Shown: one piece after another, positions 25,722-62,134 of the stretch | Numbering within the stretch: position 1 is the first letter of the stretch | How the letters are laid out: every line of letters begins with the position of its first letter | DNA from: a candidate division KSB1 bacterium | Lineage (GTDB): Bacteria > Zhuqueibacterota > Zhuqueibacteria > JANLFK01 > Oleimicrobiaceae | Reading direction: 5' to 3' | Assembly: GCA_024655945.1 (NCBI GenBank) | Contig: JANLFK010000010.1 | Coordinates: forward strand, 1-64,000 | Length of the DNA stretch: 64,000 nt | Translations under genes and position numbers: made by a program | Notes under the pieces: generated by a model | The model's input: the letters and a program-made list of their open reading frames with translations, nothing else | Databases searched by the model: none | Told to the model about the DNA's origin: nothing

Positions 25722-26855
25722 ATGCGCCCGCGAAGCGACAAGATCAAGCCCCGGGAAGAAGTCGCCGCTCTGTGCGCACAGGCGCGGGCGGAGGGCAAGA
25801 AGGTCGGCTTCACCTCTGGGGCCTTTGACCTCCTCCACGCCGGCCATGTCGACTATCTGGAAAAGGCGCGCCAGGCCTGTGACCTGTTGGTGGTGGGGGT
25901 GAACTCCGACGCCTCCGTGCGGGCCTACAAGGGGCCCCACCGGCCCATTATCCCCGCCCAGCAACGGGCGGAGGTGGTGGCCGCCCTGGAATGCGTCGAC
26001 CTGGTCTTCATCTTCTCGGAACGCCGCAACAAGGTGAACATCGAACTCTTGCGGCCGGACCTTTACATCAAGGCAGGCGACTATCGGCCAGCGGAATTGA
26101 CCTCCAGCGAGGTGGTGGAGCGCTGTGGGGGCCGGGTGCTGTTGCTTCCGGTGGCCACCCCTCTGTCCAGCACGGAAATCATCGCCCGGGCCGCCGCGGC
26201 ACATGTGCCTCAGGCCGCGCCGGTGGAACGCGATGGCGCCGTGCATATTCGTCGCCCGCCTCCGAAGCAGGCGCCCGCCGTGTTCGTCGACCGGGATGGC
26301 ACCATCTTGGAGGATGTGCCCTTTCTGCACGAGCCGGACAAGGTACGATTGCTCCCCGCGGCAGCCGCAGGCCTCAAGCGCCTTCAGGACATGGGCTATC
26401 GGATTGTGGTGCTGACCAATCAGGCGGGAATCGGGCTCGGTTACTTCACGCTTGAGGACTTTTACCGCGTCAACAGTGCGATGCTCAAACTCCTCGATGC
26501 CCACGGAGTGCGTGTCGACAAGGTCTACTTCTGCCCGCACGGGCTAGCTGAGCAGTGCGAGTGCCGCAAGCCGGGCACAGCGCTTCTCCGCCTGGCCCAG
26601 GAGCAGCTCAATGTGGATCTGCATCACAGCGTGGTGATCGGTGACCGCACAGCCGACGTCGAGACTGCCCGCCGCGCGGGGTGCAGGAGCATCCTGGTGC
26701 GCACCGGCGCAGGCGGCCAGGATGGGGAGTACGCCGTGGCGGCCGACTTTGTCGCCAATGACCTCGAGGAGGCCGCTGCTATCCTGCTGGAGCAGGAGCG
26801 GAGACCTGCAGGGGAAGACAAGACGAAAACACCAGCTTCCGGAGAAAAGCCATGA
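25722..26855 (+). CDS. Fusion of HldE-type nucleotidyltransferase and GmhB-type heptose bisphosphatase
   Basis: The protein has 377 residues in two domains. Residues about 1-165 are a cytidylyltransferase-fold domain like the C-half of HldE/RfaE2 (GFTSGAFDLLHAGHVDYL with HAGH, VGVNSDASVRAYKGPHRPI, LSSTEII), which activates heptose 1-phosphate with ADP or GDP. Residues about 180-350 are a HAD domain of the GmhB family (FVDRDGTILEDV, LTNQAGIG, CPHG...CECRKPG with the zinc ligands, IGDRTADVETA), which removes the 7-phosphate of heptose 1,7-bisphosphate. The reactions are consecutive in ADP- or GDP-heptose synthesis, so the fusion joins dephosphorylation with activation. The HldE kinase domain is absent and must lie elsewhere. 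Stop and start with the next gene overlap (ATGA). Confidence 0.85.
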   Translation: MRPRSDKIKPREEVAALCAQARAEGKKVGFTSGAFDLLHAGHVDYLEKARQACDLLVVGVNSDASVRAYKGPHRPIIPAQQRAEVVAALECVDLVFIFSERRNKVNIELLRPDLYIKAGDYRPAELTSSEVVERCGGRVLLLPVATPLSSTEIIARAAAAHVPQAAPVERDGAVHIRRPPPKQAPAVFVDRDGTILEDVPFLHEPDKVRLLPAAAAGLKRLQDMGYRIVVLTNQAGIGLGYFTLEDFYRVNSAMLKLLDAHGVRVDKVYFCPHGLAEQCECRKPGTALLRLAQEQLNVDLHHSVVIGDRTADVETARRAGCRSILVRTGAGGQDGEYAVAADFVANDLEEAAAILLEQERRPAGEDKTKTPASGEKP

Positions 26856-27079
26856 CCGTTCGCATTCCTTACTGCACCACCTGAGGCTTTCGAGCGCGCG
26901 CCGTCAGTTTGGCGGAGGAAATAGCACAGCACTTTGGCATAGAGCCAGAGGTGGTGCAGTCCACCGCAGGCGTGTTTGAGGTGGAAGTGGACGGCCAGCT
27001 GATTTTTTCGAAAAGGCGACTCGGCCGCTTCCCGGAGCAAGGCGAGGTCGTGCGCTTGCTTCGGGCTGCAATGCGATAG
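26852..27079 (+). CDS. SelW-like (Rdx family) selenoprotein with in-frame UGA
   Basis: Reading TGA at 26882-26884 as selenocysteine gives a 75-residue protein that starts M-T-V-R-I-P-Y-C-T-T-U-G-F-R. This is the CxxU redox motif of SelW/Rdx proteins (Cys8, Sec11), in the right beta-strand-turn-helix setting and followed by RARAVSLAEEIAQHFG, VVQSTAGVFEVEVDGQ, LIFSKRRLGRFPEQ and VVRLLRAAM, all typical of the family. Without readthrough the product is only 10 residues and this conservation is unexplained. A hairpin that meets the bacterial SECIS rules lies directly after the UGA. The ATG overlaps the stop of the fusion gene, suggesting translational coupling. Ordinary gene finders would miss it. 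The role is likely thioredoxin-like peptide or metabolite redox. Confidence 0.88.
26882..26925 (+). promoter_or_regulatory. bSECIS-like hairpin after the selenocysteine UGA
   Basis: CGCC (26899-26902) pairs with GGCG (26911-26914), closing an 8-nt loop GTCAGTTT whose first base is G26903; 18 nt separate it from the UGA. A lower stem, GCTTTC (26886-26891) with GAAA...GC (26918-26925), is possible. The published bacterial SECIS model asks for a G at the start of a 3-14-nt apical loop, 16-37 nt from UGA, which is satisfied. The upper stem is at the 4-bp minimum. Confidence 0.7.
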
Positions 27080-27097
27080 AGCTGATCCCTCCGGGGG

Positions 27098-43421: not shown

Positions 43422-46400
43422 CTATCGCACCACCGCCAGCTTTCCCATCACGCGCTCTTTGTCGTTGCTTATCACGTACAGATAGACACCAGAGCCAACA
43501 AGCTGGTCGTTGCCGTCCTTGCCGTCCCAGAACATGCCGCCATTGCCGTCTCTCTCCTCAAGAACGCGGACCACCTGCCCTTCCACTGTCATGATGGAGA
43601 TGGTGGCCGTTTCCGTGAGGTTGGCGAAAGTGACACGCCCCGTGCCGCTCTGGAGAAGGAAAGGATTCGGGTAGGTAAACACCTGCGACAGATCGGCCCG
43701 GACCAGACGGAGCGCCAGCCGGTCGCCCCGGCCAGGTACCACCGCTCTCCCTTCTTCCGACTTGACGCCGCTCACGTAGACGATGTGGTGCGCGTTCGGC
43801 GCTCCCAGGGGGGCGAGATGGCCGATCTGGAGGAGCACCCGCCGCAGATCTTTGGGGTCAAGCACGCTGCTGACAATGCGCACCTCCGGTTCGATCCGGT
43901 AGTTGGTCACCGTTTCTGCGCTTGTCTTGTCCAAAGGCTGACTGAAAGTGAGGACGACCTGCGCGCTCCCACTCAGCGACACGGCGGTGAGATATGGCGG
44001 CTCTGGCGCACTCACGTAGCTGAAAGTGGCGCTGCTGCGCGTCGTGTCAATAGGAGTGCGATCGCAGTCCGAGACACCCCGTACCTGCACCCTGACGGTG
44101 TCGCCGCTGCGCAGGCGTTCCGCAAGTGTGAGAATCACCTCGTGGCCAGAGCGGTCGTAGAGCACGGAATGCACGCTCCCGCCAGGAGAAAGGGAATAGC
44201 ACGAGGGGTCTTTGACAGAGGCATTCATAGGCTCACTAAAACGCAGGCGCAAACTTGTTTCACTCAGCGCGGTGGCGGCAGCGAGCCACGGGGGGCGATT
44301 CGGCTTGGCGGTCGCCATGCGCGAGGGCAGACTCTCGGGTGGGTGGCGGCTTGAGTCCACCGCACTCACCGCAAACCAGTACATCTGGTCTTGTACAAGT
44401 CCGCTCAGAGAACACAGGGGCGCAGTTGTCCAAACGCTTTGCCGCAAGCTATCCGGATACGTGCCGTACTTGACCCAATAGCCGTCGGCTCGATCGACCG
44501 GGCTCCAGGTGACGGCGATGCGAGCAGTATCCAGAGGGAAGGCATCGACCGTCTTTGGCCGTGGTGGGCGGCCCCCGATGGACAGGTACTGATGCGCGAT
44601 GACGCCGCTGCCGTCGTTGAAATAGAGCTCACGAACGCCGTCGCCATCGGTATCGGCCACGGGGGCCACATTGCTCCGGTTTGGACGATAGTGCCACACC
44701 GGCCGATACTCGCCTGCTTCGGGCACAAACTTGACCACGTAAAAGTCCGGGAAGACGTTGATGAGCACCTCATCGCGCCCATCGTTGTCGATGTCTCCGG
44801 AAGAGACCCCGGCGTCAAAGTCCTTTGGCGAGGCAAAGCCGAAGAAGCGCAGTTCGGCCTGGGGCGAGTAGCGGTCGTTGCCTGAGGCCTTGTACACGCG
44901 GTACAGCCAGTGCCGAGCGTCGTACTCGTGCTCTGCGTCCAGGCTGGGGTCGGAGTGGCAGCCGACCACAAATTCTGGGCGCCCGTCGCCGTCATAGTCG
45001 CCACTGCTCAAAAAGTCAATGGCGTCCATGAGTGGCAAGTGCTCCGACCACGTCGTCCGGAAGCGGCCATTTTCCGTGCGTTCATAGATGAACACGTCGC
45101 CGTCATAGTCGCCGATGAGGATCTCCATGAGGCCGTCGCCGTCAAAGTCCTGCACCTCCACATGGGGCACGCCCGTGATGTTGCTGCCGGGTGTGTGGTT
45201 GGGAAGCGAATCCAGCAGGGCGAAGGTGGGACCTGGCAGGCTCCGCCACACCTGGTAGGTAGCGTCCACGCGCACGATGAGCTCGGGCCGACCATCGCCA
45301 TCGAGGTCGGCGATGCGAGCCCCCCAGACATTGCTGCTATTGCGCCACACTGCCTGAAAGCTCAAGGCGCGTGGAGCGGTCTGCTCAAACAGCACGGACG
45401 TGCCGCCGTAGCCGGCAAGGATTTCAAGCAGGCCGTCGCCGTCGGTATCGCCGATGCTGCGCGGAATGGCCGGCTCGCGACTTTCCCAGACAGGGATAAG
45501 GGAGCCGTCGCGGTTCTGCCAGACCACAAGGGGCCCGAAAGAATTGCCGTTTTGATACCGGCAGCCGACGAGCTCCTCTCTGCCGTCGGCATCGAAGTCG
45601 CACACCTGCGCCAAAAGATAGGCCGGCGGGAGCGACAACGGCAGGAAGACCATCTCCAGCGCCGAGATCGGCGCCGCAGGCAGGGCCAGAGAATAGAGTC
45701 GGCCGGCATTGTCGTCGACAGTGGTGAGCTGCGCCCGGTTGGTTGCGACGATGCAAAAGCCCGCTTGCCCAGGAAGCATCTGGGGGGTCAACAAGATGCG
45801 GTGCTCAGTGGTCTGGTAGGCCAGGCGCAGTTCCTGCCATTGGTCTCCAGGAGTCGGCCACTGCACCGCTGCCTCGCAAAGGTCATCTGTGGCGAAAGTG
45901 AGGAGCGAAGCGAAGTAGTCCCCTTCGAGCATCGGGGTCTGCACCACTTGGCTGATGCGCGGTGGGGTGCGGTCCACAAACAGACGCAGCGATTGCGACA
46001 CCACGCTGCCGCCGGCGCTTTCCACGGACAGGCGCAAGGTGTACTCGGTATCCGGAAGGGCGCTGACATCCCACAGGCCCAGGGTGTCGTCGATGACTTG
46101 CCGGTTCTGCACCCGCACCAGCGGCTGCCAGACGTTGGGGTCGACTCCTGCTCCATAGGAGAGCCCGTAGGCGCGCATGAACACCCCGGCGGCCGTGCCC
46201 ACGAGCGGCACGCTCCCACCGGCAATCCCTTGGTCCAGTCGCGGCCAGGTAATACGGGCCACCGTGAAGTTGGGACTGTGGAGGGCGCTGCTGGCATTGA
46301 TCCGTCCTGCCCCATAGTAGCGGTCCCACCCTGTACTCCCCAGGTCGTCGGCGGTTGCAAGGAGAGTTCCCCGCACATTGTCACTGGCATAATCCGGGTG

Positions 46401-47642
46401 CTGTGTGAAAATCAGTGCGGCAAGGGCGCTGACGAAAGGCGCAGCTGCTGAGGTACCGCTGAACATCGTGTACCCGCCGCCGAGGCTAGTGGTAAGGATG
46501 CGGGATCCAGGCGCCACAAGGTCAATAGTGGCACCATAGTTGGAAAAGCCGGCCAAGTAGTCGGTGGAGTCGGTAGCCCCTACGGCCAGCACCTCCTCGA
46601 AGCCCGAAGGGTAATGCACCTCGCTGCTGGCACTGTTGCCAGCGGAGGCGACCAGCAGCACCCCACAAGCATGTGCGTAGGCGATAGCGTCGCGGAGGAG
46701 GGGCGTGCACACTACATCGCCAAAGCTCATGTTCACCACCTGCGCGCCATTGTCAGCGGCGTAGGCCAAGGCTGACGCCACGTCGTCTTCCTCCAGCAGG
46801 CCGCGACTTGTCCCTGCACGCAGATTCATTAGCCGACAGCCGAACGCCAGGCCCGCAATGCCCACGCCGTTGTCAGCGACCGCGGCGATGATCCCTGCCA
46901 CCGCTGTGCCGTGACCGTGCTCGTCGGCCGGGTCGTTGTCGCGCACCAGATAGTCCCCCCCATCGGCGAAATAGGGCGCGTCGGTAAAGTCCCACCCCTG
47001 CACGTCATCGACAAAGCCATTGCCATCGTCGTCTATGCCGTTGAAGTCAGTGGAGTCGACACGGCCATTGCTGTTGAGGTCCTCGCCTGGGTTAATCCAG
47101 ATGTTTGCTGCCAGGTCCTCGTGCCGGTAATCGATACCCGTGTCGATGACGCCCACAATCACGCTCCGCGAGCCCGCAGTGACCTCCCACGCGGCGCTCG
47201 CCTGGATGCGCTGGAGCCCCCACTGCGAGGGGAACATAGGGTCATTTGGCAGGAAGTGCAGGGAAAAGACGTGATTGACATGCGCGTACTCCACCTCCGG
47301 ATCGCTCGCCAGCGCCGCGACAAACGTTTCCGCTTCAGCACCAGGGAGACGCACCTCATAGATGCGATCCAAGCCCAAGGAGCGGCGCACCTCGGGGTGG
47401 CAGGGTCTTCCAGGACGGACAAAGGTCGGACGTACGCTCTCTACCCGATGTGTCTGGCAGAGGTGGTCCAAAGTGGTCATGCCAGTGCTGATCGGCCCCT
47501 CGGCGGTTTTGCCCAGCGCGCGCAGGGGCTGCCGTGTCTTGACGATGACCTCGACGAGGCCGCGGCCTTCGTCGCCAACAAGGTGCGACGAAAGAGTGAG
47601 CAGCGCGCAAAAAGCCAGTATTTGCTCTGCCAGCCTCTTCAT
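43422..47642 (-). CDS. Secreted subtilisin-like (S8) protease with FG-GAP repeats and FlgD-like C-terminal domain
   Basis: The protein has 1406 residues, with signal peptide LAFCALLTLSSHLVG. An I9-like prodomain (about 30-130) precedes the S8 core: Asp in GVIDTGIDYRHEDL (about 165), His in HGHGTAVAGIIA (about 243), Ser in FSGTSAAAPFVSAL (about 395). An insertion of DSTDFNGIDDDGNGFVDD type looks calcium-binding. The second half has several FG-GAP/VCBS-like repeats of D-x-D-GDGRPE kind (about 690-1020), fibronectin-like domains, and a C-terminal FlgD/sorting domain (TYPNPFLL ... GVYLYVISNDKERVMGKLAVV). A cell-surface or released degradative protease is likely. ATG at 47642 has GGGAGAGG upstream; it is 2 nt from the GT2 stop. 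Confidence 0.87.
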   Translation of the reverse strand: MKRLAEQILAFCALLTLSSHLVGDEGRGLVEVIVKTRQPLRALGKTAEGPISTGMTTLDHLCQTHRVESVRPTFVRPGRPCHPEVRRSLGLDRIYEVRLPGAEAETFVAALASDPEVEYAHVNHVFSLHFLPNDPMFPSQWGLQRIQASAAWEVTAGSRSVIVGVIDTGIDYRHEDLAANIWINPGEDLNSNGRVDSTDFNGIDDDGNGFVDDVQGWDFTDAPYFADGGDYLVRDNDPADEHGHGTAVAGIIAAVADNGVGIAGLAFGCRLMNLRAGTSRGLLEEDDVASALAYAADNGAQVVNMSFGDVVCTPLLRDAIAYAHACGVLLVASAGNSASSEVHYPSGFEEVLAVGATDSTDYLAGFSNYGATIDLVAPGSRILTTSLGGGYTMFSGTSAAAPFVSALAALIFTQHPDYASDNVRGTLLATADDLGSTGWDRYYGAGRINASSALHSPNFTVARITWPRLDQGIAGGSVPLVGTAAGVFMRAYGLSYGAGVDPNVWQPLVRVQNRQVIDDTLGLWDVSALPDTEYTLRLSVESAGGSVVSQSLRLFVDRTPPRISQVVQTPMLEGDYFASLLTFATDDLCEAAVQWPTPGDQWQELRLAYQTTEHRILLTPQMLPGQAGFCIVATNRAQLTTVDDNAGRLYSLALPAAPISALEMVFLPLSLPPAYLLAQVCDFDADGREELVGCRYQNGNSFGPLVVWQNRDGSLIPVWESREPAIPRSIGDTDGDGLLEILAGYGGTSVLFEQTAPRALSFQAVWRNSSNVWGARIADLDGDGRPELIVRVDATYQVWRSLPGPTFALLDSLPNHTPGSNITGVPHVEVQDFDGDGLMEILIGDYDGDVFIYERTENGRFRTTWSEHLPLMDAIDFLSSGDYDGDGRPEFVVGCHSDPSLDAEHEYDARHWLYRVYKASGNDRYSPQAELRFFGFASPKDFDAGVSSGDIDNDGRDEVLINVFPDFYVVKFVPEAGEYRPVWHYRPNRSNVAPVADTDGDGVRELYFNDGSGVIAHQYLSIGGRPPRPKTVDAFPLDTARIAVTWSPVDRADGYWVKYGTYPDSLRQSVWTTAPLCSLSGLVQDQMYWFAVSAVDSSRHPPESLPSRMATAKPNRPPWLAAATALSETSLRLRFSEPMNASVKDPSCYSLSPGGSVHSVLYDRSGHEVILTLAERLRSGDTVRVQVRGVSDCDRTPIDTTRSSATFSYVSAPEPPYLTAVSLSGSAQVVLTFSQPLDKTSAETVTNYRIEPEVRIVSSVLDPKDLRRVLLQIGHLAPLGAPNAHHIVYVSGVKSEEGRAVVPGRGDRLALRLVRADLSQVFTYPNPFLLQSGTGRVTFANLTETATISIMTVEGQVVRVLEERDGNGGMFWDGKDGNDQLVGSGVYLYVISNDKERVMGKLAVVR

Positions 47643-59553: not shown

Positions 59554-60057
59554 CTACCATCCGGACACCGTGCGGTTGAGGATCTCGGTGACCAGCCTGC
59601 GGATTGCCTCGTTGATCCCTTCCTGCCGAGCGCTGGTGCCGCCGGCCTTAGGGTCGTAGGCGCCCCACTGCGTGAGGCGGTCTTTCCAGACCTCCTGGCT
59701 CTTCTTCAGATCGAAGTAGCGGACGTCCACGGTGATATAGACCTTGAGTTCCTGCACCATCTCCTGCTTGTCATAAGGTCCGGCACGGTCATCCACCGAC
59801 ACGATGACACCTTCAAGCACAGAGTCGGCGCTGTGCCGCTCGGCGATGCGCAGCGTGTTGTCGCGGGTGAACTCCTGCACCAGCGCCTCGGTGAGCTGCT
59901 CGCGGATGCCAAACTCGGCGGTGCGGTCGTCAAACACCGGGATAGCCACCGTCTTGATGTGCGAGGCGCTCCCCGGCGAGAATGAATAGTAGCCACACGA
60001 GCACAGCAACGAGGTGGCCGACAAGAGCAAGACGAGGCGTAAAGGTCTACAGGCCAT
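59554..60057 (-). CDS. lptE: LptE-like LPS-assembly lipoprotein
   Basis: The protein has 167 residues. A signal peptide with lipobox LLCSC (Cys21) is followed by [25 protein letters not shown] and a beta domain of the LptE/RlpB kind seen in FCB genomes. It would plug the LptD barrel that inserts LPS in the outer membrane. Its start overlaps the sigma-54 activator stop by 11 nt. Assignment rests on the domain layout more than on strong motifs. Confidence 0.78.
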
Positions 60058-61204
60058 ACTGCTTGATCTTCCGGTAGATGGTGCGCTCCGAAATGCCCAA
60101 GAGTTTGGCCGCCTGGCGGCGGTTGTTGTTGGCCGCCTGCAGCGCCTTGCGAATGGCCTCGCGCTCGCTGTCGCGCAGCGCGTGTACAGGAGCTTCGCGC
60201 GGCTCGTCCACGGCGACGTCCACCACTGGCTCTGGCTGTGTCGCCCGCCACGGCATCAGGCCACGGGGGGCGATCAGACCGTCGTAGATGAGGCGGCGCA
60301 GCTCGGCAATCTCATCGCGCAGTTCCAACAAGGCGCGGTAGATGAACTCGCGCTCTACCTGCTCCACCGTCTTGCCCACGCGCACCGGCAGGCTGCGCTC
60401 GCCTTCGCTTGCCGGCCGCAGATGGCGGGCAAGCACGCGCTCATCGATCCTCTTGCCTTTTTCCAGGACAATGATGCTCTCCACCAGGTTCTTGAGCTGG
60501 CGGACGTTTCCCGGCCAGGTGTAGTTCTCCAGCAGGTGGTAAGCCGACTCGGTAAAGCCTTCGAACTCGATATGGTTCTCGCGGCAGAAGCGCCGCGCAA
60601 AGAGGTCTACCAGCGGACGAATGTCCTCGCGTCGCTCGCGCAAAGGCGGCACCTGAATGGTAACGGCGTTAAGGCGGAACAAGAGGTCCTGCCTGAAGGT
60701 GCCCTTCTTGACCTCTGCCTCTAACTCCTTGTTGGTGGCCGCGATCACGCGCACGTCGACGCGCACCGTGGTACTGCCCCCGACGCGCATGAACTCCTTG
60801 TACTCCAACACGCGCAGAATCTTGACCTGGGTCGCCAGCGGCATCTCGCCGATTTCGTCAAGGAAGATGGTGCCGGCGTCGGCAATTTCAAAGTACCCCT
60901 TTCTCGTGCCGATGGCGCCGGTGAACGAACCCTTCTCGTGCCCAAAGAGCTCTGACTCCAATATGCCCTCGGGGATTGCCCCGCAGTTGACCACCACCAG
61001 CGGGCGTTCTCTGCGCAGGCTGCCGGCATGGATGGCTTTGGCAATGAGCTCCTTGCCAGTGCCGCTTTCACCGGTAATGAGCACCGAGATGTCGGTGGGG
61101 GCCACCTGCTCCACCGCGCGCAGGACACGCTGCATCGCCTCAGAGGTGGCGATAAAGCCTTCCTCTTGCAGCCAGCTGGTGGTCTTCTGCGGTTGGTCGC
61201 TCAC
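60047..61204 (-). CDS. Sigma-54 activator with AAA+ and Fis-type DNA-binding domains
   Basis: The protein has 385 residues. The AAA+ domain (about 15-250) carries Walker A GESGTGKE, the sigma-54 loop GSFTGA (usually GAFTGA), Walker [12 protein letters not shown] and the arginine-finger region LRERREDI. A Fis-type helix-turn-helix is at the end ([24 protein letters not shown]). No receiver or other sensor domain is present, so its activity is controlled by levels or by partners. GTG start 3 nt after the epimerase stop. Targets are not identifiable here. Confidence 0.9.
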
Positions 61205-61207
61205 GGG

Positions 61208-62134
61208 TCACCCCTCTGCCTGCGCCCGGAACCACGCCACCGTCCGCGCCAGTCCATCGTCCAGGCTGACCTCTGGCTCCCAGCCCAAGATCACCTTTGC
61301 CTTGGCGACATTGAGCACGCTGCGTCGTTGTTCCCCCTCTTTCGGGGCATCGTGCACCTCCTTTTGCCGCGCCCCACACAGCGCATTGAGCTTGGCGAAA
61401 ATGGTGTTGACGTCGGTCTCGATGCCGGTGCCAATGTTCACGTAACTGTTTGCCGAACTCCGCAAAGCGAGCAGGTTGGCGCGCACCACATCGCCCACGT
61501 ACACATAGTCCCGCGTCTGTTTGCCGTCTCCATGGATGACCGCTTCCTTGCCGGCCAGCAGGCGGCTGGTGAAGATGGCGACTACCCCTGCTTCGCCAAA
61601 GGGGTTCTGGCGCGGCCCGTACACGTTGGCATACCTGAGGATGCAGTAGCGCATGCCATAGGTGGTGGCGTAGAAGTGGATGTACTTCTCGCAGGCCAAT
61701 TTAGTGATGCCGTAGGGACAAGCCGGCCAGGTGGGATGCTCTTCGTCCGCAGGGAAGGTCTGCTGCTCGCCGTAGACGGCCCCCCCGGTGGAAGCGAAGA
61801 TGAAAGCCCGCACGCCGTGCCGCTTGCAACTCTGCAGGAGGTTGATGGTGCCCAACACGTTCACCTGCGCGTCGTAGATGGGGTCATCTACCGAGCGGCG
61901 CACGTCCATTTGCGCCGCGTGGTGGTTCACCAGGTCGAAGTGCCCTTCTGCGAAAACGGCGCCAAGCTGCGCTTCCCGAATGTCCACTTGCCAGAAGCGC
62001 GCCTTCGGGTTGATGTTCTCGCGGCGCCCAGTGGAGAGGTTGTCCACCACGGTGACCTCATGTCCCTCAGCAATGTACGCATCAACTACGTGACTGCCGA
62101 TGAAACCTGCGCCTCCGGTTACCAGTATCCTCAT
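61208..62134 (-). CDS. NAD-dependent sugar epimerase (GalE-like)
   Basis: The protein has 308 residues of the extended SDR family. The NAD loop is VTGGAGFIGSHVVDAYI at the start, the Ser in ASTGGAVYGE and the YGITKLACEKY (Tyr-x3-Lys) complete the catalytic triad, and RYANVYGPRQNP follows. UDP-glucose or UDP-glucuronate 4-epimerase is likely. It starts at ATG 62134, overlapping the purD stop by one base. Confidence 0.85.
   Translation of the reverse strand: MRILVTGGAGFIGSHVVDAYIAEGHEVTVVDNLSTGRRENINPKARFWQVDIREAQLGAVFAEGHFDLVNHHAAQMDVRRSVDDPIYDAQVNVLGTINLLQSCKRHGVRAFIFASTGGAVYGEQQTFPADEEHPTWPACPYGITKLACEKYIHFYATTYGMRYCILRYANVYGPRQNPFGEAGVVAIFTSRLLAGKEAVIHGDGKQTRDYVYVGDVVRANLLALRSSANSYVNIGTGIETDVNTIFAKLNALCGARQKEVHDAPKEGEQRRSVLNVAKAKVILGWEPEVSLDDGLARTVAWFRAQAEG

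Follow-up and report, generated by a model that had tools for sequence, protein, structure and literature searches.

A predicted SelW-like selenoprotein gene with a conserved SECIS hairpin, overlapping a heptose fusion gene in a candidate division KSB1 bacterium

Within the 64,000-nucleotide stretch analysed here (the window), positions 25722-26855 of the forward strand carry an open reading frame matching the Pfam CTP_transf_like and HAD hydrolase families, corresponding to a cytidylyltransferase and HAD phosphatase fusion gene of the HldE-C/GmhB-like type. As the preliminary description had noted, its TGA stop (26853-26855) overlaps the ATG start (26852-26854) of a second gene on the same strand through the shared sequence ATGA. 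This second gene, at 26852-27079, comprises 75 codons and a TAG stop (27077-27079) when its frame is read through a TGA at 26882-26884, and is preceded by a probable ribosome binding site, GGAG (26841-26844, forward strand), identified from the sequence 7 nt 5' of the ATG and lying within the upstream gene. With TGA written as U, the translation reads MTVRIPYCTTUGFRARAVSLAEEIAQHFGIEPEVVQSTAGVFEVEVDGQLIFSKRRLGRFPEQGEVVRLLRAAMR. The UGA thus corresponds to residue 11, the second redox position of an N-terminal CxxU motif (C8-T-T-U11), and is predicted to specify selenocysteine from the pattern of UGA and Cys among homologues and the selenocysteine machinery of the genome.

The read-through frame matches the Pfam Rdx family (PF10262) over profile positions 1-73 of 74 (2.3e-20; 73 bits against a cut-off of 22.6) and TIGR02174 (2.9e-17; 62.7 bits against 34.2), a match far beyond chance which bears out the earlier reading that Rdx-typical sequence continues to the TAG at 27077. 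With U written as C, the protein also matches the SelTWH_Campy equivalog NF041051 (1.6e-24), and is not filed under it because its score of 86.0 bits falls just under the curated cut-off of 88. Among PDB chains, sequence matches were obtained to C17orf37 (6.5e-12) and to selenoprotein W (2npb; 2e-4). In a simple ORF map after overlap removal, no ORF of at least 100 amino acids covers 26856-27097; the locus is empty in such an annotation, as had been anticipated, and gene callers that take UGA as a stop would miss the gene.

Homologues were identified in 64 of 194 related genomes, nearly all with the in-frame TGA, and a further 48 loci came from a collection scan, with titles naming Acidobacteria, Gemmatimonadetes, Planctomycetota, Actinomycetota, Desulforhopalus, Sulfurospirillum and others. 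Across these many phyla the UGA occupies the same codon: among the 94 homologues readable in frame, the fourth motif position is UGA in 92 and Cys in two (L103, CVRC; L104, CTQC), with a weaker Cys-form homologue (L105) carrying CPRC. The placement of TGA 26882 at the second redox residue, as noted earlier, is confirmed. The best identity to the named homologues found is 55%, and the residue after the predicted selenocysteine is Gly in the window protein and Asn in most homologues. A closer relative provides a measure of selection beyond the UGA. In G001, a genome of the same genus, the gene is intact with its UGA in place and encodes a protein 87% identical to that of the window; over the codons after the UGA the two genes differ by 17 synonymous and 7 nonsynonymous changes (dS 0.48, dN 0.05, dN/dS ~0.10), indicating that these codons are under purifying selection. 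Coding conservation past the UGA, whose absence from close relatives the preliminary description had named as grounds for rejection, is therefore present in G001 as well as in some 90 distant homologues.

The preliminary description had also proposed a hairpin with a G-first apical loop 18 nt after the UGA. A hairpin with such a loop does exist, and comparison among homologues supports it in a different register: the 18-nt placement, 4 nt nearer the UGA than the conserved one, was replaced by a core at 26901-26915 of the forward strand, in which CCGUCA (26901-26906) pairs with UGGCGG (26910-26915) around a GUU loop (26907-26909), giving a 6-bp stem and placing the loop G 22 nt past the UGA. 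Published constraints on bacterial SECIS elements (bSECIS) specify a loop of 3-9 nt, an upper stem of 4-16 bp, a G among the first two loop bases and a distance of 16-37 nt from the UGA (PMC13188914). The window hairpin satisfies this geometry (GUU loop, 6-bp stem, 22 nt), while the energy of its core stem, -7.4 kcal/mol, is just short of the published free-energy cut-off of -7.5. Folding of the window sequence by itself is not supportive and was set aside as evidence for a SECIS: the segment 26880-26925 reaches -9.8 kcal/mol in a fold other than the core and is less stable than its shuffles (z +1.7), and the window's own best hairpin (-7.4) is no better than its synonymous-codon controls. Since the window hairpin is not unusually stable alone, support for the SECIS is comparative.

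This comparative support takes several forms. Averaged over homologues, the best bSECIS-constrained hairpin reaches -11.3 kcal/mol, whereas synonymous-codon controls average -7.5. The loop begins 21-22 nt after the UGA in most homologues, and all 88 distinct sequences have the loop G at 22 nt. In these sequences, 82% of the cells of an eight-pair stem are paired, a share that falls to 71% in row shuffles and does not exceed 50% when the structure is slid. For the same structure, the covariation score of a 28-sequence alignment is 0.32, compared with 0.16 after shuffling, and none of 500 shuffles reaches the observed value. The hairpin also leaves a mark on codon usage eight codons past the UGA (+8), where Ser is encoded by AGU in 38 of 43 cases (7.5% at other positions of these genes), Gly by GGU in 29 of 34 (16% elsewhere), and Arg by CGU in 5 of 11 (15% elsewhere). 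These counts indicate that the SECIS hairpin dictates codon choice at this position, an NGU rule. Whether one uniform SelW-like SECIS (CC-R-GU-Y-U-GG, with a loop G 22 nt past the UGA) is shared by many phyla, imposes an NGU codon on Ser, Gly or Arg alike and forms a defined bSECIS subclass, is a proposition to which we give even chances; such a family-wide SECIS and codon rule could help annotators to find hidden genes of this kind. A covariance model of the element convincingly recovered the window site and its G001 orthologue in three genomes of the genus, with no further convincing SECIS site in these three genomes, and no Rfam family was matched in the window.

The source assembly, a 26-contig draft of 3.94 Mb that is 97.7% complete, carries a complete bacterial selenocysteine pathway. 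It contains a tRNA-Sec (75 bits; confirmed by ARAGORN, anticodon TCA) located less than 1 kb after selB (350 bits), together with selA (568 bits) and two selD genes above cut-off, so that selA, selB and selC, whose absence had been put forward as a reason to discard the prediction, are all in the genome. As previously predicted, the locus and this machinery indicate that the organism makes selenocysteine. One selD (L019:1483-2436; contig C19 of the source genome, G000, ~45713-46648) is itself of the Sec type, as its active-site loop (TSAAGUAAK) contains an in-frame TGA, and the genome therefore encodes at least two predicted selenoproteins; this selD comes directly after a YedF-like (SirA/DsrE-type) gene. 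A formate dehydrogenase was rejected as a further selenoprotein, the homologue having no internal stop and scoring under the family cut-off. A single open frame on another contig (L018:301-2424; G000:C3, ~59768-61891) encodes a NifS-like class-V aminotransferase fused to SelD, the SelD part being a Cys form (GLGCACK) that coexists with the separate Sec-type SelD. A NifS-SelD fusion has been reported from one Geobacter only, with a CxxU motif (PMC2398784).

Among the related genomes, selA or tRNA-Sec was present in 55 of the 58 with a UGA-containing SelW gene and in 75 of the 136 others (Fisher p 1e-8, overstated inasmuch as the homologues are related and the counts take no account of genome relatedness or incompleteness). 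Neither component was detected in the remaining three, all drafts: G050, G064 and G112 (loci G050:C34:4652-4873, L037 and L050, respectively). Incompleteness of the assemblies is the probable cause, although the completeness rating of G064 is 98%.

The order of heptose gene and SelW-like gene is found in G001 and in a second genome of the genus, G002, and neighbourhood clustering of homologues revealed no heptose-gene neighbour outside the genus. A functional link to the heptose gene was therefore discarded, and the neighbour is a genus-level coincidence. In G002, where the gene order is kept, the heptose gene and a pseudouridine synthase flank a decayed SelW copy (L106:2916-3135; G002:C4) that shows frame disruptions and additional stops and is no longer matched by the SECIS covariance model. 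Since this copy has decayed in a genome that retains selA, selB and tRNA-Sec, the SelW-like gene is dispensable, and G002 looks like a recent case of selenoprotein loss with the selenocysteine machinery kept.

The decayed G002 copy is the one observation in favour of reading the window locus as a pseudogene, i.e. an Rdx gene in which a UGA stop has arisen by mutation of the Cys codon. The evidence for the intact copies is not weakened by it, and we regard this reading as very unlikely given the purifying selection after the UGA relative to G001, the recurrence of UGA at the same codon in many phyla, and the presence of an intact SECIS, tRNA-Sec, selA and selB. Decoding of the UGA by other means, through near-cognate suppression or stop reassignment, is extremely improbable: nothing was found in its favour, TGA serves as a normal stop for other genes in the window, among them the upstream gene (26853-26855), the SECIS is conserved in place and sequence, and the full selenocysteine machinery is available. 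The draft state of the genome might suggest that the UGA is a sequencing or assembly error, an explanation whose chance is negligible and which is refuted by the same UGA in the separately assembled G001 and ~90 other genomes.

Taken together, the family match across the UGA, the conservation of the UGA itself, selection on the codons after it, the conserved SECIS and the full selenocysteine machinery make it nearly certain, as judged from sequence, that a bacterial SelW-like (Rdx) selenoprotein is encoded by a functional gene at 26852-27079, with its UGA read as selenocysteine. Selenium would then be incorporated by the mechanism established for bacteria, involving SelB, Sec-tRNA and a SECIS. 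A ribosome meeting the UGA at codon 11 would find SelB with Sec-tRNA(Sec) bound to the hairpin at 26901-26915, its loop G 22 nt 3' of the UGA, and selenocysteine would be inserted. Translation is probably coupled to that of the upstream gene via the ATGA overlap, and the product, judging from its family, would be a redox protein of thioredoxin-like fold with a CxxU selenenylsulfide pair.

Cys-containing Rdx proteins (PDB 2fa8 and 2ljk; L103 and L104) belong to the same family as the window protein, but have Cys in place of selenocysteine and need no SECIS. Eukaryotic selenoprotein W likewise belongs to the family by sequence (PDB 2npb) and shares the CxxU position, whereas its SECIS lies in the 3' UTR rather than in the coding region. 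Knowledge of SelW-like CxxU selenoproteins in bacteria dates back to 2005 (PMC1088965, PMC2398784); they have been described in Sargasso Sea bacteria (PMC1088965) and in sequenced bacterial genomes (PMC1794560), and form the most numerous selenoprotein family in Global Ocean Sampling data, where Sec forms number 427 and Cys forms 56 (PMC2398784). The window gene resembles these (PF10262; TIGR02174) in family, CxxU motif, UGA-encoded selenocysteine, a SECIS just downstream and a small stand-alone product, and differs in nothing essential, its particulars being an identity of at most 55% to named homologues, the Gly after the selenocysteine and, within the genus, the heptose-gene overlap. The locus is thus a real, ordinary bacterial selenoprotein gene of an already known family.
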